From Pirellula staleyi DSM 6068 (GTDB lineage Bacteria; Planctomycetota; Planctomycetia; Pirellulales; Pirellulaceae): 64,000 bases of DNA. This document shows, in pieces, positions 44,311 to 51,354 of this stretch. The translations under genes were made by a program, and so were the position numbers. The stretch lies in assembly GCA_945875845.1 (NCBI GenBank), contig CAMCMB010000003.1, positions 1 to 64,000 of the forward strand. The letters run 5' to 3'. Each line of letters opens with the position of its first letter. Position 1 is the first letter of the stretch. The notes below the pieces were generated by a model that searched no databases, was not told the origin of the DNA, and saw nothing but the letters and a program-made list of their open reading frames with translations.

Positions 44311-44556
44311 TTATTCACCCGGAGCGGCACTTGTTTGTATGATAGGCGACACCGTCGCGGGCATTGTTGGGCTCGCGGCTTTGCGTGCCAGCAGGTTCGT
44401 AACGATGCCAATCAGAAAACTTCCGACGGCGTAGATGACTGGCAAGGCCGAATAGGACGGGTCTTTTGGATTCATCGCTACCATAACGAACAGGGCGCTC
44501 GCCATAAACGAGGTCAAGGACAATCCGAGGTAAGCTAGATACTTTGCATCTTTCAT
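44311..44556 (-). CDS. Small two-helix membrane protein, last gene of the photo-operon
   Basis: 81 residues from ATG 44556 (the frame also opens at 44610). Two transmembrane helices (LAYLGLSLTSFMASALFVMV and LPVIYAVGSFLIGIVTNLL) are linked by AMNPKDPSYSA; the tail is Ala/Pro-rich (ASPTMPATVSPIIQTSAAPG). It starts 46 bp after crtB on the same strand with no terminator seen between. That places it at the end of the rhodopsin-carotenoid unit. The function is unknown. Co-transcription is an inference from spacing. Confidence 0.55.
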   Translation of the reverse strand: MKDAKYLAYLGLSLTSFMASALFVMVAMNPKDPSYSALPVIYAVGSFLIGIVTNLLARKAASPTMPATVSPIIQTSAAPGE

Positions 44557-44602
44557 CGCTAAATCTCCAGAAACAGTGGTGAGTGGGAACATAAAGACGG
44601 AT

Positions 44603-45574
44603 TCATCCATTTTTGCAATACAATTTCAAGGCTAGTGAGGGACCTCCTAACGAAACAAGGGAAGCGATCCACGCTATACGAACACGCGAGAGTGCTATCC
44701 GCCCCTCCATGACGTTCGCTTTTCGTCGCAGGATCTCTCTGCCAATTTCGCGATAGACAAGCGCCGCGAGGCAAATCGCCTTCCGGCATGAACTTGGCAA
44801 GTACTTTAGCCCGCTCAGCCCGCTTTGATAGTGACTTTCGGCCAAGTTCAACAATCGTTCGACGCACGAGCGAACGTCCTCGCTCGTGGGTGCCCTTGAG
44901 AAGTCAAGTGTTGTTAGGCTTTCTGGTCCTGCGGTCGTTCGAGGCAATTCGGATTCGAGCCAGCTTCTCGGCAAATAGCAGCGCCCGAGATGCCAGTCTT
45001 CCTTGACATCGCGAGCAATGTTGGTCAATTGCATGGCGATGCCAAGGTCCACCGCATGCCTCTCCGCCGCTGGATCACGAACGCCCATGACTCGGCACAT
45101 CATCAATCCGACAACTCCAGCCACGCGGTAACAGTAACGTAGCAACTCTTCTTCATCGCGAACCCACCACGATTTCAAGTCCATTTCCATACCGGACAAC
45201 AGTGCCAACGCGTCGACCTTTTGGATCCCTTTGGACTCGACTAAATCTGCCAACCATTGAGACGCCGGATGCTTCACCGGATGTCCGTCAAAGATACGTG
45301 TCACGTCCTCACGCAAATACGAAAGACGCGTTTGGGCTACTTCGAAGCTCGGCGCGGAGTCGACAGCTTCGTCACACCACCTGCACCAAGCGTAGAGTTT
45401 TTCGACATCACCTCGAACCGCCAATGGCAAACATCGCGAGGCCGTCGCAAAGGAGCGACTGTAAAATCGGATCACAGAGGACTCATCGGTGGGAACGTCG
45501 AAGAAATCATCCTTTGCGTCGACTTTAGAATCGGACCGATTGGATGTAATGTCGGGTTTTGCAGCAGTGCTCAT
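44603..45574 (-). CDS. crtB: Phytoene synthase
   Basis: 323 residues from ATG 45574, which overlaps the crtI stop as ATGA (4 bp); the frame opens 13 codons further upstream inside crtI. It belongs to the squalene/phytoene synthase family, condensing two geranylgeranyl diphosphates to phytoene. Both aspartate-rich sites are present: LYAWCRWCDEAVD (D-x3-D) and NIARDVKEDWHLGRCYLP. YCYRVAGVVGLMMCRVMGV is the family's middle signature. The N-terminal ~35 residues are a polar extension. It is the last carotenoid enzyme gene of the operon. Confidence 0.95.
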   Translation of the reverse strand: MSTAAKPDITSNRSDSKVDAKDDFFDVPTDESSVIRFYSRSFATASRCLPLAVRGDVEKLYAWCRWCDEAVDSAPSFEVAQTRLSYLREDVTRIFDGHPVKHPASQWLADLVESKGIQKVDALALLSGMEMDLKSWWVRDEEELLRYCYRVAGVVGLMMCRVMGVRDPAAERHAVDLGIAMQLTNIARDVKEDWHLGRCYLPRSWLESELPRTTAGPESLTTLDFSRAPTSEDVRSCVERLLNLAESHYQSGLSGLKYLPSSCRKAICLAALVYREIGREILRRKANVMEGRIALSRVRIAWIASLVSLGGPSLALKLYCKNG

Positions 45575-47142
45575 CCGACGAGTACTCCAAAATCGCGAGC
45601 GACCAAGGCGCAAGTCGCCTTGGCAGTATTGATGACTCCAGGAACGCCAGCACCTGGATGCGTTCCACCACCCACAATGTAAAGCCCCTCAATACTGGCC
45701 GATTTGTTGTGCGGCCGGAAGTAGGCACTCTGCGTCAGCGTCGGAGCGACCGAAAATGCGGAGCCATGAAATGCATTCAACTCACTTTGGAAATCGGCTG
45801 GCGTGAAGTGCCGACGCGTCACAATGGATTCGCGTAAGCCGGGCAGATGCTGTTCGAGTGATGCTAATATCGCATCGCCATAGCGACCGGCTATTGAATC
45901 CCAATCCACCTTGGCACGCCCCAGGTGAGGGACCGGACTTAAGACATAAAATGCTTCATTGCCCTCAGGAGCCAACGAAGGATCCGTAATAGAGGGAGCA
46001 TGCAAATAAAGGCTGAAATCGTCGGGTAGCGTATGCCCCTTGAAGATGTCGTTGAGTAAGCCTTTGTAGCGATTTCCAAACAGGATGGTATGGTGAGCCA
46101 ACTGGTCGAAGCGGCGATTCGTACCGAAATACATGACGAACAACGACATGGACCAATTCATGCCTTCTAAACGTTTGCCAGTGCGGATCGCGGATTTTTC
46201 CGATCGATACAGGTGTGCATACGTGTGGTGAATATCCGCATTCGATACGACCAAATCAAAGCATTGTCGAGCGTGGTTATCGGTTGAGACAAAATGCTTG
46301 ATTGAATTTCCAACTTGTTCCAATTGGATCTCTCGCACTGGCGAGCTCAATCGCAATTGCCCCCCCAGTTTTTCGAAGAGCCGAACCAGTCCTTTCACCA
46401 AAGCGCCGGTCCCCCCTTTGGGAAAGAAGACGCCCCATTGCCGTTCGATCCAGTGGATCAAGGTGTAGATTGCGCTTGTGCTATAGGGATTGCCACCCAC
46501 CAACAATGGATGGAAACTGAACGCTTGTCGCAGGTGCTCGTCTTTCATAAATCGAGAAACAGCCGAGTAGACACTGCGATCTGCTCTTAGTTTCATAAGA
46601 TCCGGAGCCACACGTAACATATCCCGAAAGTTCAGAAAGGGTACTGCTCCGAGTTCTTGGTAGCCCTTTTGAAACACTCGCTTGGAATACTCCGCAAATC
46701 TTCGGTACCCTTCGACGTCGGATGGGTTGATACGGCGTATTTGCTCCACTAGTCTCGATTCGTCGGAGACATAATCAAAACTCTGGCCGTCCGCCCACTG
46801 CAATCGATACATCGGATCGACGGGCAGAAGCTCGACATAGTCGTTCATGGATTCGCCAGCGACATCGAACAGCTCTTCGATGCAATGAGGTGCGGTGATC
46901 ACCGTCGGTCCAGCATCGAAAGTAAAACCCGAATCGTTGTAGACGTAGGCTCGACCTCCAGGCTTATCGCGTCCCTCGAAACAAACCGTATCAAACCCCA
47001 TCGCTTGCAACCTTATGGCTGCCGCCAGTCCACCAAAGCCGCTTCCGATGACCGCCGCTGAACCTCGCGAACCTTGTTGTCGCGGACGTCCCAAACGGGC
47101 CGCGGATTCGCGGTGGTCGATGGAACTAAGCGAAGTCGACAT
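45571..47142 (-). CDS. crtI: Phytoene desaturase CrtI-type
   Basis: 523 residues, typical for bacterial CrtI. AAVIGSGFGGLAAAIRLQAM near residue 30 is the FAD dinucleotide-binding motif, followed by GRAYVYNDSGFTFDAGPTVI. The C-terminus shows GLYIVGGGTHPGAGVPGVIN, the family signature. It should desaturate phytoene in four steps to lycopene. Lycopene as the end product is inferred because a beta-cyclase gene is in the same operon. The start overlaps the crtE 3' end by 17 bp and the stop overlaps crtB by 4 bp, consistent with coupled translation. The first ~30 residues are a polar extension. Confidence 0.95.
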   Translation of the reverse strand: MSTSLSSIDHRESAARLGRPRQQGSRGSAAVIGSGFGGLAAAIRLQAMGFDTVCFEGRDKPGGRAYVYNDSGFTFDAGPTVITAPHCIEELFDVAGESMNDYVELLPVDPMYRLQWADGQSFDYVSDESRLVEQIRRINPSDVEGYRRFAEYSKRVFQKGYQELGAVPFLNFRDMLRVAPDLMKLRADRSVYSAVSRFMKDEHLRQAFSFHPLLVGGNPYSTSAIYTLIHWIERQWGVFFPKGGTGALVKGLVRLFEKLGGQLRLSSPVREIQLEQVGNSIKHFVSTDNHARQCFDLVVSNADIHHTYAHLYRSEKSAIRTGKRLEGMNWSMSLFVMYFGTNRRFDQLAHHTILFGNRYKGLLNDIFKGHTLPDDFSLYLHAPSITDPSLAPEGNEAFYVLSPVPHLGRAKVDWDSIAGRYGDAILASLEQHLPGLRESIVTRRHFTPADFQSELNAFHGSAFSVAPTLTQSAYFRPHNKSASIEGLYIVGGGTHPGAGVPGVINTAKATCALVARDFGVLVG

Positions 47143-48202
47143 CGGCAGCCTCCGATGGTTTCTTTTGTGGTTCCTTGTGTGCTTCCTTCTTGCTCGGATT
47201 CGAGATGCGTTCCAAGACAGATCGCAAGAGGTTCATCGAGCTCAAATCGAGGACATGTTCTCCGACCAATCGAAAATGCCGTTCGACCCTGTCTCGGATG
47301 ACCTTGTCTCCCACTGAGCCTGTGTGATGGAGAAGCTGCTTTGCCAACGCAACCATGGCCATCCGATCGTCTTTTACTTCAGGCAATTGATGAACCAGTT
47401 TCGCGAACTCATCCCTTGTGCAATGCTGAAAGGCCAAAGCCCATGGCCAAGTGACTCGAGCGTTTCGCAAGTCGTCCGATCGTATAGCGAGGCCCTGCGA
47501 TGAGTCGGATATCATGGAGCGAAGCTCTTGAAAATCGTTGCGCATTTGAAGGGCAATGCCAACGTTCATTCCAAATTTAGAGAGTGCGTTTCTCAAGGTT
47601 CTGTTGGCACCCGCAGCCACCCCGCCAAAGGTTGCAGCCATGGCGACCAAGCTCCCCGTTTTTAAACGGCTAATTTCGCTGACGAGTGGTCCGATCGTTG
47701 CGGAATCGATTCGATCCACTCGGGCAGCCAGATCGAGCGATTGCCCTTGATGGCATCTCAGCCCCGTTGCGACCAGGAGCTGCAATAACTTGAGCTGAAC
47801 ACGTCGGTCCAACGACTTGTCAAATAGTTTGTCCAAGGCTTGAAAGTACATCCAGTTGCCCGCGTTTAAAGCCAACGGCATTCCAATTTCAACGTGCAAG
47901 GCGGGTAACTCGCGTCGCATGGTGGACGCGTCTTGAATGTCGTCGATGACCAACGAGCCCGCATGCAGCCATTCGATCGAGTCACCTAGGCATGCAGGTG
48001 CATCTCCCAGTCCTCCGGCCATCGAATACGCCAAATCAACGACGCACTTGCGAATCTGTTTCCCCGAGCGATCCAAGAACTGCTGCGCTGGATCCAATAA
48101 CGAGGCTCTTTGCCACGCTTCGCAAATCCTCGCACGATCCTTTGCTCGCTTCGCGTTGTGGTTGATGCTATTCGCGGTACCGAAGCTATGGACGATACTC
48201 AT
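47126..48202 (-). CDS. crtE: Geranylgeranyl diphosphate synthase
   Basis: 358 residues. The polyprenyl synthetase first aspartate motif is intact (LVIDDIQDAS, DDxxD), as are GKQIRK near the N-terminus and the LKTGSLVAMAATFGG helix. The second motif is altered: LQMRNDFQELRSM where most relatives have RDDxxD, so Asn replaces the first Asp and Glu the last. A C-terminal charged tail (SNPSKKEAHKEPQKKPSEAA) is unusual. Product assignment to C20 rests on operon context (crtB, crtI). The stop overlaps crtI by 17 bp and the start overlaps crtY by 4 bp. Confidence 0.88.
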   Translation of the reverse strand: MSIVHSFGTANSINHNAKRAKDRARICEAWQRASLLDPAQQFLDRSGKQIRKCVVDLAYSMAGGLGDAPACLGDSIEWLHAGSLVIDDIQDASTMRRELPALHVEIGMPLALNAGNWMYFQALDKLFDKSLDRRVQLKLLQLLVATGLRCHQGQSLDLAARVDRIDSATIGPLVSEISRLKTGSLVAMAATFGGVAAGANRTLRNALSKFGMNVGIALQMRNDFQELRSMISDSSQGLAIRSDDLRNARVTWPWALAFQHCTRDEFAKLVHQLPEVKDDRMAMVALAKQLLHHTGSVGDKVIRDRVERHFRLVGEHVLDLSSMNLLRSVLERISNPSKKEAHKEPQKKPSEAADVDFA

Positions 48203-49494
48203 ACCCCAATCTCCTCGTAGTCCGATTTTGAAATTTGCGTGAAATTGGAATTGGCAACGGTTGCGATGGTTCGTTTCGGTTGTCGAAACAAAGAGCGAGC
48301 GAAAACGATCGGTTGCAAACCTGCAGGAGGCAGTCCCACGACGATCCGAAACGCATCCCTCGCAGTAAAGCGATGCGAGTAAAATCGTGCAATGGAGTCA
48401 GTCGATAGCACTTGGTAAAATCGTCGAAAGATCTGATATCGCTTGGGCGGCTTGACCAAGCAAAACAGCAATCGGTTTAAGAATCGACTGAACTGCGAGC
48501 GAGTTCTATTGGAAACTGCCAGCGTTGTGACAGCAGCCGCAGCACGTTCCGGCGTGGTGCTGGCAACTGTTTCCGCGAAGTCCATGGCTAAAGGGAATGA
48601 ATAACCGGTGGCTGCATGAAACCAGCCACCGGCATAGCCGCCCGCCATGGCTTCGTCGGCTAGGGATTCACTACCTGGCTTATGCTCTCCGCTGATCGGC
48701 ATGGGAAGTAGTCCATGCTCCTCCCTGACGATCGACCATGCATTCACACCGCATGAACTCAGGTAATTTCCGACCTTCTGCAAACAGTCATTGCGGTCAA
48801 TGGCGGTATTATTCGAGAATCGCGTATCCTCCACGAGAACGCGTCGTCGCGTGAATGGCAAGCTGTAGATGAACCGAAAACCGTCGCACTGTTCGATTCG
48901 ATCGTCCATCACGATGGGCCCGTCAAACGGCCAATCGGATTGCAGTTCGATCTCGAAGCCCCAGAATTTCTGGTATCCGGTTTGGGAAAAGTGCGATTGG
49001 TTGGCGGGCTTCGCACCTCGACAGTCGATTACCAATCGACCTCGGTAAGATTGCCCGTTGGCGGTCGTGATCTCGTTCCGATGAACTTGTGTTACCTCGC
49101 TGCCCGTAAGTAAAACGCCAAACGGTTGCGACGACTCTCGATTCTCACCCGTAACTCGATTCTCACCCGTAAAACGAGCAAGCGTCTTCGCCACGATCTC
49201 AGCAAAATACGTTGATGAAATGGATGCGTACGACAGTCCAATCTGCTTTTCTAGCCCATGGATGCGAACTTGATAACTCGGCCAACGGTACTCGACGGCG
49301 GGAGAAACCCATGCGGCTGCGGATGTTGAAACGTCTCTAGGATGGAAGGACCAAGTGTGATTGCCGGCGATTGCGTCCTGTCTTTCCACGAGCAGCACCC
49401 TAGCCGACGGCTGGTGATGATACAAAGCCAGCACCAATAGCCCGCTTTGAAGGCCTCCCCCCACCAAGATGTAATCAAACTCGAACGAGTTCAT
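48199..49494 (-). CDS. crtY: Lycopene beta-cyclase, CrtY type
   Basis: 431 residues. The N-terminal FAD-binding motif YILVGGGLQSGLLVLALYHH and the CrtY signature AGNHTWSFH are present, then LVIDCRGAKP, FWGFEIELQSDWPFDGPIVM and PFTRRRVLVEDTRFS. The later AGGWFHAATGYSFPLAMDFA is the second family signature. It closes both ends of lycopene to beta-carotene, the substrate of the Blh enzyme next door. A short in-frame duplication (TGENRVTGENR, ~residue 109) lies in a loop. ATGA overlaps join it to blh upstream and crtE downstream. Confidence 0.93.
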   Translation of the reverse strand: MNSFEFDYILVGGGLQSGLLVLALYHHQPSARVLLVERQDAIAGNHTWSFHPRDVSTSAAAWVSPAVEYRWPSYQVRIHGLEKQIGLSYASISSTYFAEIVAKTLARFTGENRVTGENRESSQPFGVLLTGSEVTQVHRNEITTANGQSYRGRLVIDCRGAKPANQSHFSQTGYQKFWGFEIELQSDWPFDGPIVMDDRIEQCDGFRFIYSLPFTRRRVLVEDTRFSNNTAIDRNDCLQKVGNYLSSCGVNAWSIVREEHGLLPMPISGEHKPGSESLADEAMAGGYAGGWFHAATGYSFPLAMDFAETVASTTPERAAAAVTTLAVSNRTRSQFSRFLNRLLFCLVKPPKRYQIFRRFYQVLSTDSIARFYSHRFTARDAFRIVVGLPPAGLQPIVFARSLFRQPKRTIATVANSNFTQISKSDYEEIGV

Positions 49495-50432
49495 ACTGCC
49501 CTTTCAAGAGGCATGGGGGATTTTTCGCTGCGATAAACCCAATGACTTGTTATGGAATGCAAAGCCAGATGCGGGACCGCCATCGCGGACAATCCAATGA
49601 ATAATGTGCGAGTCAGCTCGACGCTTAACTCACGATCGCTAAACCAAAACCACATTCCTAATCCGATCAAAGCGATACCACCGACGGACATTGGCAACGA
49701 GGCCCACAGCAGCGCACCAAGTTTCATATTGTGCTCTTGCATTAGATCACGCAAACCTCGAATGGAATGCCAGCCGCAAAAGTAGATCGCAAAGGAAACG
49801 GGAATGGGCGTCAAAGCAAACAGTCCTATCAAGATCCCTTGCCGCACCAACCGTTCTACTGCATTTTTTGCTCGGAAGAAGTGTGACCACATGGGGATCA
49901 AAGCATCCAAAAATGCGATCGGCAACAAGAAAATCGCCAAGATTTGAGTCCAAAACACGATCGAGCCGCCCGACATGGACATCGATTCTGGGATAATCCC
50001 GTCGAGAATTCTCTGCATCTCCATAGGACGTGCGATCGCAGGTATCCAAATGACCAAACCTCCTGAAGCGACGTTAAACAAAATTTGAAAAGACGAAGCG
50101 GACGACCCAACTGCAGTGTCTTGCTGCCCGAAATGACCGGCAGACAAGACGAAAAAAACAATCGCTGTCATGAGCGGACTGACCAACCACCCGAAAACAG
50201 TGACCAAGCTAATCGTTAGATACAAGCCGAAAAACGGAAGCACCCAATAGCTACCCCATTGATCGACGAGCAGTTTCCGACCTGTCAGATGATCGAGCCC
50301 CCCGTGAGGAACACCGATCAAACAAACTGCCGCCAAAATCAAAATAATCGTCGTCAGGGAGTCAAACCGGTATCCAAGGGACGCTAGAGCGATGACACCA
50401 ACGCAACTAGCGCAAAACCATTTGTGATGCAT
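49491..50432 (-). CDS. blh: Beta-carotene 15,15'-dioxygenase, Brp/Blh family
   Basis: 313 residues with about eight to nine hydrophobic helices, as expected for this integral membrane enzyme. The iron-binding histidines are visible in conserved contexts: IGVPHGGLDHLTG, LSAGHFGQQD, FCGWHSIRGLRDL and AVPHLALHSITSHW. It splits beta-carotene symmetrically into two retinal molecules, the rhodopsin chromophore. The gene lies between rhodopsin (76 bp upstream) and crtY (4 bp overlap), so substrate synthesis, cleavage and apoprotein are encoded together. Confidence 0.94.
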   Translation of the reverse strand: MHHKWFCASCVGVIALASLGYRFDSLTTIILILAAVCLIGVPHGGLDHLTGRKLLVDQWGSYWVLPFFGLYLTISLVTVFGWLVSPLMTAIVFFVLSAGHFGQQDTAVGSSASSFQILFNVASGGLVIWIPAIARPMEMQRILDGIIPESMSMSGGSIVFWTQILAIFLLPIAFLDALIPMWSHFFRAKNAVERLVRQGILIGLFALTPIPVSFAIYFCGWHSIRGLRDLMQEHNMKLGALLWASLPMSVGGIALIGLGMWFWFSDRELSVELTRTLFIGLSAMAVPHLALHSITSHWVYRSEKSPMPLERAV

Positions 50433-50508: not shown

Positions 50509-51354
50509 CTATACCGATACTGGACTCAATCGGTCAGCAGAGTGCGAGGTACGAGTGCTCTTCGCCCGAGCGATGAAATAAATCAATATTCCAAAACCAG
50601 CTTTGGCGGTCATGTCGGCAATCGCGTATCCGACTTGCAGTCCAACCATGCCGGTTCCATCGACCAACCCACCCGCTTTGGCTGTCAATGCCTGAGGCGT
50701 TCCACCCATCGCATAGGCGATTGGGTAAACGGCCCAGGTCACCAAAAGTACCAATCGAGCGATTTCGATCAATCGTCGTGCGGCAACTGGTTGTGAATCA
50801 AGGGATTTCGTCAATTCCACCCATAAAACGTAGAGAATGTAGAAGAAAGGAATTGAGGATAACACTCCCCAAATCACTCTCGTAAGCCAACCGTCTGGAG
50901 TCGAAATCACTTCACCGGGATACCCAAGGGCAATCATCAACGCAGCCGCGATCACCAATCTGGTCAACAACGAAGTGGCCCTGTCTTTTTGCAATCGCAG
51001 AACGGCAATCAATTCGACCATAAGGAGCGGAACGGTCAGGATCCAGTCCGCGTACCGATAGAAATCGTTAAATGCGGTTCCCGTACCCTTGTAAGCGCCT
51101 CCCGAGAAGGCGTACGAGTCTTGCCAGGAATGTCGGATCATAAAGTAGTGGTAACATGCGATCGATACGACGATTCCCGAAATCAACAACGCTGGCCGAT
51201 ATTCCTCATCCACCGAGGACCGTGACAAAAACAAAAACAATGCTGCGGCGCCCATCGTCGCAACGGTCATCGAGAAAATATTATCCACAATACTATACTG
51301 AAATACCGACAGATCGGGCATCGCTCCAAAGAGGGATGGTATCCACAGATCCAT
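50509..51354 (-). CDS. Light-driven proton-pump rhodopsin, xanthorhodopsin-like (DTE motif, fenestration glycine)
   Basis: 281 residues from ATG 51354, with GGAG 8 nt upstream; an ATG at 51444 is in frame but adds a non-conserved leader. Seven helices are visible. Helix C YRYADWILTVPLLMVEL gives Asp103-Thr107-Glu114, the DTE triad of outward proton pumps. Leu111 is the proteorhodopsin 105 equivalent and predicts green absorption. His69 (CYHYFMIRHSW) matches the Asp-His pair of proteorhodopsins. Lys251 in DMTAKAGFG is the retinal Schiff-base lysine. In helix E, TRVIWGVLSSIPFFYILYVL aligns with bacteriorhodopsin so that Gly163 replaces Trp138, the opening that lets xanthorhodopsin bind an antenna carotenoid. 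It is the first gene of the operon. Confidence 0.95.
   Translation of the reverse strand: MDLWIPSLFGAMPDLSVFQYSIVDNIFSMTVATMGAAALFLFLSRSSVDEEYRPALLISGIVVSIACYHYFMIRHSWQDSYAFSGGAYKGTGTAFNDFYRYADWILTVPLLMVELIAVLRLQKDRATSLLTRLVIAAALMIALGYPGEVISTPDGWLTRVIWGVLSSIPFFYILYVLWVELTKSLDSQPVAARRLIEIARLVLLVTWAVYPIAYAMGGTPQALTAKAGGLVDGTGMVGLQVGYAIADMTAKAGFGILIYFIARAKSTRTSHSADRLSPVSV

Follow-up and report, generated by a model that had tools for sequence, protein, structure and literature searches.

A Pirellulaceae rhodopsin with a xanthorhodopsin-type fenestration glycine and a distinctive pocket floor, a candidate for a carotenoid antenna

Rhodopsins that bind a carotenoid antenna are recognized primarily by a glycine at the fenestration site (PMC12308411, with which PMC13093654 agrees), and further by a conserved helix-F tyrosine, which the carotenoid-binding rhodopsins in the table of PMC12308411 share. 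Kin4B8 no longer binds zeaxanthin when Gly153 is exchanged for a bulkier residue (PMC12308411), the G178W exchange abolishes canthaxanthin binding in Gloeobacter rhodopsin (GR; PMC9151804), and bacteriorhodopsin carries a bulky Trp at this site (PMC13093654; PMC8113403). A natural change of the glycine to Phe or Trp among homologs has already been described (PMC9151804). The floor of the site differs between binders of different carotenoids. At the positions of Kin4B8 residues 208-209, hydroxy-binders have Ser-Tyr (Kin4B8), Thr-Asp (KR1) or Thr-Glu (EinA), and keto-binders have Met-Ala (Salinibacter ruber xanthorhodopsin, SrXR) or Met-Leu (GR) (PMC12308411). Replacement of Ser208 by Ala cuts zeaxanthin binding by Kin4B8 to 2%, and beta-carotene fails to bind this protein (PMC12308411). 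In GR the 4-keto ring is critical for binding, zeaxanthin being counted, like beta-carotene, as lacking it, and exchange of T179 for Gly lowers canthaxanthin binding (PMC9151804). Planctomycetota are represented among the rhodopsin-bearing MAGs of a study that ran a G156 test on its whole set (PMC13043013, 2026), and none of the six planctomycete strains of another study has a rhodopsin gene (PMC11588811). Among the matches listed from the open-licence literature, the text available from these sources mentioned no planctomycete antenna rhodopsin, nor the operon described here, nor a Gly-Thr floor.

The window analyzed here, a 64,000-nucleotide stretch of DNA, belongs to a 7.0-Mb genome (149 contigs, 99.95% complete, 3.55% contamination) whose sole rhodopsin gene it contains. 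This gene is followed on the same strand by genes for retinal and carotenoid synthesis and by a small gene that we call HYP99:

50509..51354, (-) strand: xanthorhodopsin-family rhodopsin, predicted proton pump, 281 aa (PF01036, 135.9 bits)
49491..50432, (-) strand: blh, beta-carotene 15,15'-dioxygenase, which makes retinal (TIGR03753, 156.5 bits; PF15461)
48199..49494, (-) strand: crtY, lycopene beta-cyclase, with a 4-bp overlap with blh (TIGR01789, 278.6 bits)
47126..48202, (-) strand: crtE-like polyprenyl (GGPP) synthase (PF00348; below the NCBIfam cut-offs)
45571..47142, (-) strand: crtI, phytoene desaturase (TIGR02734, 651.8 bits)
44603..45613, (-) strand: crtB-like phytoene synthase (PF00494, 241.7 bits; below the NCBIfam cut-offs)
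44311..44610, (-) strand: HYP99, small hydrophobic protein without known family, last gene of the operon

The rhodopsin start codon was set at 51354 rather than 51444, and the plus-strand homologs examined begin likewise. The blh gene lies 76 bp downstream, and from blh through crtY, crtE, crtI and crtB to HYP99 consecutive genes overlap by 4 to 43 bp, as judged by ORF ends. Because the genes share a strand and overlap in this way, those from rhodopsin to HYP99 are likely to be on one transcript. The predicted product of the operon is beta-carotene, which Blh would cleave to retinal, and no carotenoid-modifying gene is seen within it; the family assignments thus bear out the preliminary description, which had the operon making only beta-carotene, with no ketolase or hydroxylase visible. 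Among relatives, identity is much higher for rhodopsin (mostly 70-85%) and CrtI (mostly 66-82%) than for Blh, CrtE and CrtB (~30-59%).

In sequence and in predicted fold the protein is a seven-helix microbial rhodopsin nearest the xanthorhodopsin group. Its PDB matches psXR (9wfa), SrXR (3ddl), GR (6nwd) and Kin4B8 (7ytb/8i2z) all have E values of 1.7e-64 or better, so that three antenna binders, SrXR, GR and Kin4B8, are among the best sequence matches. The AlphaFold2 model (mean pLDDT 83.6) has the expected helices, and the top of its structural list is Kin4B8 (Z 34.6, rmsd 1.3 Å over 249 residues); the corresponding values are Z 34.5 for GR and Z 31.1 with an rmsd of 2.0 Å over 248 residues for SrXR, and the best row outside the xanthorhodopsin group has Z 32.0. 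The nearest relatives among the best 80 of 585 pattern-search matches come from Pirellula and other Pirellulaceae genomes, and isolate names such as Lac Pavin and Erken suggest that several of them are lake-derived. The residues that matter for function were placed by alignment:

51013..51048, (-) strand: helix C proton-pump motif DTE, Asp103-Thr107-Glu114
50866..50868, (-) strand: Gly163 (GGA), the fenestration glycine, equivalent to SrXR Gly156 and Kin4B8 Gly153
50713..50715, (-) strand: Tyr214, equivalent to Kin4B8 Tyr204 and SrXR Tyr207
50698..50703, (-) strand: Gly218-Thr219, antenna-site floor, at the place of Kin4B8 Ser208-Tyr209
50602..50604, (-) strand: Lys251, the retinal Schiff-base lysine

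With D103, T107, E114 and K251 the protein has both the DTE motif and the Schiff-base lysine of xanthorhodopsin-type pumps, and it is predicted to be a light-driven outward proton pump.

Positions 50863-50871 (-) read TGG GGA GTG and encode Trp162-Gly163-Val164. In the alignment to five reference sequences residues 157 through 185 are gapless relative to the query, with a 3-residue gap directly before residue 157 in three of the five. Gly163 aligns on SrXR Gly156 and Kin4B8 Gly153, as the preliminary description had proposed for the xanthorhodopsin glycine, and structure prediction sets residue 163 inside helix E (153-185) of a model that is closest to Kin4B8 and GR. Chance or misalignment as the source of Gly163 was considered and is ruled out by the gapless alignment together with the conservation described below. 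The protein therefore has Gly at the SrXR 156 position, and with Tyr214 it also has Tyr at the position of SrXR 207 and Kin4B8 204.

The pocket floor, which has a bearing on the carotenoid that can fit, was absent from the preliminary description and is new here. The Gly218-Thr219 floor is unlike those of all five rhodopsins tabulated in PMC12308411. Reading positions 208 and 209 gapless from the conserved Tyr, we find Gly at 208 in 46 of 55 Planctomycetota sequences versus 0 of 39 others, these others coming from the best 80 of 585 matches. Position 209 in the 46 Gly208 planctomycete rows is Thr in 38, Asp in seven, which correspond to Gemmataceae rows, and Phe in one. Of the 39 other rows (again from the best 80 of 585), Kin4B8 itself has Tyr there, and the remaining 38 all have one of Leu, Ile, Val, Ala, Phe or Trp. 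Set beside the polar floors of the 3-hydroxy binders Kin4B8, KR1 and EinA, the window protein is non-polar at 208 (Gly) and polar at 209 (Thr), and its Gly-Thr pair is not the hydrophobic floor of the 4-keto binders (Met-Ala, Met-Leu). This small polar floor would thus partly resemble those of 3-hydroxy-xanthophyll binders, more so than those of the 4-keto binders SrXR and GR. Because the floor is unlike the keto type and partly like the hydroxy type, 3-hydroxy-xanthophylls are favored, and the floor points to such an antenna with moderate strength. Two substitutions speak against an antenna: the Ser208 of Kin4B8 is replaced by Gly, and the T179 of GR is Val, as it also is in Kin4B8.

The best reading of these sequences is that the window protein would be a fenestrated xanthorhodopsin, a new member of a known group. 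For the fuller proposal, in which its antenna is a 3-hydroxy-xanthophyll either acquired or made by an unrecognized enzyme, we put the chances at about even; this estimate overlaps with that for a self-made antenna, which is a sub-case of it and is weighed below. We infer the whole course, from proton pumping and carotenoid binding to the kind of carotenoid, its source and energy transfer, as follows. Retinal would be supplied by the protein's own operon through CrtE, CrtB, CrtI, CrtY and Blh. A lateral fenestration would stand open between helices E and F, where Gly163 would open up a space next to the beta-ionone ring of retinal that a carotenoid's end ring could enter, with Tyr214 lining this space and Gly218-Thr219 forming its floor. 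The likeliest antenna would be a xanthophyll with a 3-hydroxy beta-ring, for example lutein or zeaxanthin, most likely obtained from nearby algae or cyanobacteria and otherwise from an unrecognized hydroxylase. We know of no route for xanthophyll uptake in these bacteria. Uptake would need one, since the native carotenoid of the actinorhodopsin ActR-13023 is reported to have barely crossed the cell membrane (PMC8113403).

The conservation of the glycine bears directly on this proposal. A rhodopsin match occurs in 31 of 241 genomes of the window's family, 14 of the 31 being in the window's own genus. Within a set of 29 close family sequences that counts the window's own and omits three matches of another rhodopsin type (in G050, G118 and a second copy in G052), the site is Gly in 26 and Phe in three (L041, L043, L044); the three omitted rhodopsins are 30-33% identical and have Phe in the glycine column. 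For a broader comparison 114 rows were deduplicated to 94, namely 55 from Planctomycetota and 39 others (34 loci and 5 references); these others were found with planctomycete peptide patterns, as the best 80 of 585 matches, and are no fair sample of all xanthorhodopsins. Gly occupies the site in 51 of the 55 Planctomycetota sequences and Phe or Trp in four. In all 94 sequences, with the others from the best 80 of 585 matches, there are 84 Gly, 7 Phe and 3 Trp. The glycine codons of the 51 Planctomycetota sequences are GGT (20), GGC (15), GGA (13) and GGG (3). Phe or Trp is found in relatives as close as 61-73% identity (L114, L120, L126), and on a quick tree of the 94 rows, made without the pocket columns and with long branches flagged, the site changes among Gly, Phe and Trp at least four times, three of the changes being forced by well-supported branches. 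Because Phe or Trp occurs repeatedly in this tree, bulky residues appear to be tolerated. That 51 of 55 Planctomycetota nevertheless have Gly, encoded by any of the four codons, argues that the residue is under purifying selection, which is not proof of an antenna.

The glycine might instead be a legacy of the xanthorhodopsin ancestor in a protein that uses retinal alone and has its gap filled by lipid, an explanation that we hold to be the less probable one. Since Gly is also the commonest residue in the non-Planctomycetota rows (33 of 39, from the best 80 of 585 matches), and so is common across related groups, Gly163 could have been inherited rather than used. The serine that Kin4B8 needs for zeaxanthin binding is missing, and neither hydroxylase nor ketolase is recognized in the genome, both of which fit a protein without antenna. 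What such a protein would leave unexplained is that Gly is kept 51 times in 55, with free choice of codon, at a site where relatives tolerate Phe and Trp, and that the Tyr214 column is likewise held, with Tyr in 53 of the 55 Planctomycetota sequences and Phe in 2.

Three Pirellulaceae rhodopsins (L041, L043 and L044; ~70% identical, and including the L114 and L120 sequences) combine Phe at the site with a Ser-Thr floor. Judged from these residues, Phe rhodopsins of this type should serve as natural controls, expected to be without antenna binding.

If the proposed 3-hydroxy-xanthophyll is bound, it has to come from somewhere, and a search of the 7.0-Mb genome recognized neither crtZ nor crtR, two of the genes for which the preliminary description had proposed a genome search. 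No CrtZ was found in the whole genome by tblastn. The Pantoea query is 69% identical to Comamonas CrtZ, and both exceed the PF04116 (FA_hydroxylase) cut-off; we take both to be CrtZ by gene order, their records reading 'sterol desaturase family protein'. Because both references exceed the cut-off, a CrtZ-like enzyme should have surfaced in the PF04116 search of the genome, which gave a single match, L002 (C71), and no recognized CrtZ. The Pantoea query likewise had no match in the 241 family genomes, a search run without a genome-level control. The CrtR model gave nothing in the window's genome at E 1e-10 and did give a match in a control cyanobacterium. The CrtW model gave nothing at E 1e-10 in the 241 genomes, nor in any control. 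No CrtO was recognized in the genome: of its 13 CrtI-family matches three are above cut-off, and the two of these that lie beyond the operon reach 93 and 81 bits with CrtO, against a cut-off of 1000. The PF00487 search of the genome returned three matches; in NCBIfam these come nearest to lipid desaturases, without reaching the cut-offs. Because no antenna-making enzyme is recognizable in the genome, the antenna is more likely to come from uptake, from L002 or from the genome's P450 than from a known enzyme.

That one of these two proteins, the lone FA_hydroxylase-family L002 or the lone P450 (L081, C121), hydroxylates beta-carotene so that the antenna is self-made strikes us as doubtful. Each family is found just once in the genome, and the two reference CrtZ share a Pfam family with L002. 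The nearest solved relative of L002 is, however, the lipid hydroxylase SCS7 (E 1.4e-4), and it resembles CrtZ only weakly (27.7 bits). The PDB matches of the P450 include CYP120 (2ve3), a retinoid hydroxylase, but the best are CYP51 types and the RiPP enzyme ApyO, and neither the best 60 of 184 PDB matches nor the 9 NCBIfam families matched, all below cut-off, are named as carotenoid hydroxylases. By eye, in the stretches listed, neither L002 nor the P450 adjoins a carotenoid gene. Saproxanthin has a 3-hydroxy ring. On the side of a self-made antenna, C40 and C45 carotenoids, of saproxanthin type by a cited title, are reported from two marine Pirellulaceae (PMC12078418).

Relatives offer some further candidates. 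The CrtR model matches in 15 of the 241 family genomes, five of which also have a rhodopsin match (G008, G043, G050, G091, G184); only G050, with a listed contamination of 9%, is above cut-off. The CrtR matches of G091, which belongs to the window's genus and has a rhodopsin, and of G065 reach 124 and 130 bits where the cut-off is 475; they lie in ORFs of 638 and 623 aa (L172 355-2271 (+) and L171 1474-3345 (-), respectively), whose last third looks desaturase-like by eye. These ORFs are possibly fusions of another enzyme with a carotenoid-hydroxylase-like desaturase, and such CrtR-like proteins may keep a self-made antenna open in relatives. A home-made filter for histidine-box ORFs, applied beside the rhodopsins of 109 loci (the overlapping sets L049-L077 and L085-L164), returned six candidates. 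One, an FA_desaturase gene of a Rubripirellula sp. (L092 6162-7196 (-), the same as L057), lies upstream of the rhodopsin on the opposite strand; its CrtR score is 62 bits (cut-off 475), and it may encode a carotenoid-modifying enzyme. Of the others one is lipid-desaturase-like, one is a hydroxylase resembling OlsE, one belongs to DUF2017 and one is without family.

The operon's own beta-carotene might itself be the antenna, as the sole cyclic carotenoid predicted from the identified genes, and Gly218, a floor residue peculiar to the planctomycete group in a sample whose other members come from the best 80 of 585 matches, could give room for an unsubstituted ring. We nonetheless think it improbable. 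Blh, by its family function, consumes beta-carotene. Because beta-carotene does not bind Kin4B8 (PMC12308411), and with GR needing a 4-keto ring (PMC9151804), this third source allowed in the preliminary description is disfavored, being less likely than the other two. Its reading of the protein as an antenna rhodopsin accordingly stands in part: the glycine, the equivalence to Gly156 and the lack of a recognized hydroxylase or ketolase (for CrtW by a model that gave no match in any control either) are upheld, and the beta-carotene option is disfavored.

The genome also contains a second carotenoid set, made up of a pair of neighboring SQS/PSY genes with a weak CrtI-family match, all on C85, and of two further CrtI-family genes, one adjoining an aldehyde dehydrogenase. 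The C30 product of a squalene route is acyclic. The set is read as probably a C30 pigment route because squalene-derived C30 carotenoids are reported for the planctomycete P. limnophila (PMC12078418). Despite these genes and that precedent, an acyclic C30 pigment is a most improbable antenna, as the described ligands put a beta-type ring in the pocket (PMC13093654, PMC12308411).

The last gene of the operon encodes HYP99, for which Pfam and NCBIfam gave nothing beyond single weak matches. Leu32, Leu40, Phe41, Val44, Pro48, Lys49, Tyr53, Pro57 and Tyr60 are invariant over 15 members, including the stretch PK-x(3)-Y-x(3)-P-x(2)-Y. Among 46 loci (L085-L130), crtB followed by over 500 bp of sequence is present in 32, and 28 of the 32 have an HYP99 match, counted if starting 70-250 bp after the crtB match (L123 by position only, E 2.2). 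HYP99 occurs in 35 of the 241 family genomes, and 28 of these belong to the 31 genomes in which a rhodopsin was matched. Of the seven without, three (G099, G141, G185) have it on contigs of 3.3-4.4 kb beside operon pieces, and four have broken operon remnants (G122, and G206, G208 and G211 of genus g60). HYP99 therefore looks like a dedicated part of the rhodopsin operon; a role in pigment loading or pump stabilization is a guess.

In the remnants L191, L192 and L193 (g60) and L195 (G122), fragments of crtB, crtY, crtI or blh lie beside a near-full-length HYP99; perhaps these rhodopsin-less genomes have been caught while losing phototrophy. The rhodopsin of G118 is of a different kind (~30% identical, Phe at the site) and directly follows HYP99 in an operon that is otherwise similar; both rhodopsin kinds are found in G052. 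Because G118 has the other type in this place and G052 both (L077, L074), the rhodopsin type appears to have been switched within the operon.

Returning to the fenestrated xanthorhodopsin with a 3-hydroxy-xanthophyll, we mention a bolder version that we regard as unlikely: the planctomycete xanthorhodopsins would form a third specificity class with a Gly218-Thr/Asp219 floor and a scavenged pigment on which the pump depends. The ring could then be held differently from the keto site of SrXR and GR and from the Ser-anchored hydroxy site of Kin4B8, and HYP99 could help in loading. If the pigment is scavenged, light harvesting would depend on the pigments of neighbors. The present analysis would add a conserved planctomycete operon to the antenna-type rhodopsins; on phototrophy in this group the literature found says little. 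It also provides natural test material in the Phe-bearing close relatives, in a variant floor that tests the keto/hydroxy rule and in a named strain, Rubripirellula obstinata CECT 8602, whose rhodopsin (L093) is 83% identical.

Of the known systems, the freshwater Kin4B8 (7ytb, 8i2z), which binds lutein and zeaxanthin, is 46% identical to the window protein over the structural alignment. The two share the DTE motif, the glycine (Gly153), Tyr204, Ala205 and the block WGVLS-x-x-PF-x-YILYVLW, and differ in the floor, which is Ser-Tyr in Kin4B8 and Gly-Thr in the window protein. SrXR (3ddl), the salinixanthin-binding protein of Salinibacter ruber, is 50% identical over the structural alignment and shares Gly156, Tyr207 and DTE, but has a hydrophobic Met-Ala floor and a 4-keto carotenoid as its native antenna. 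GR (6nwd) and psXR (9wfa) are 50-51% identical. The Gly178 of GR is shared, and the helix-F Pro and Ile that have been mutated in GR are also kept, whereas its floor is Met-Leu, its Thr179 corresponds to Val and its ligands are echinenone and canthaxanthin. Thermophilic rhodopsin (5azd) has a near-identical helix E stretch (WGALSSIPFFYILYVLWVE) and the same helix-F Tyr-Ala, with a different floor, Thr-Trp. Among the actinorhodopsins (ActR-13023, RlActR 9hfk), ActR-13023 shares the glycine and, according to PMC8113403, takes up native carotenoid; the actinobacterial rows among the best 80 of 585 matches differ from the window protein in their hydrophobic floor.
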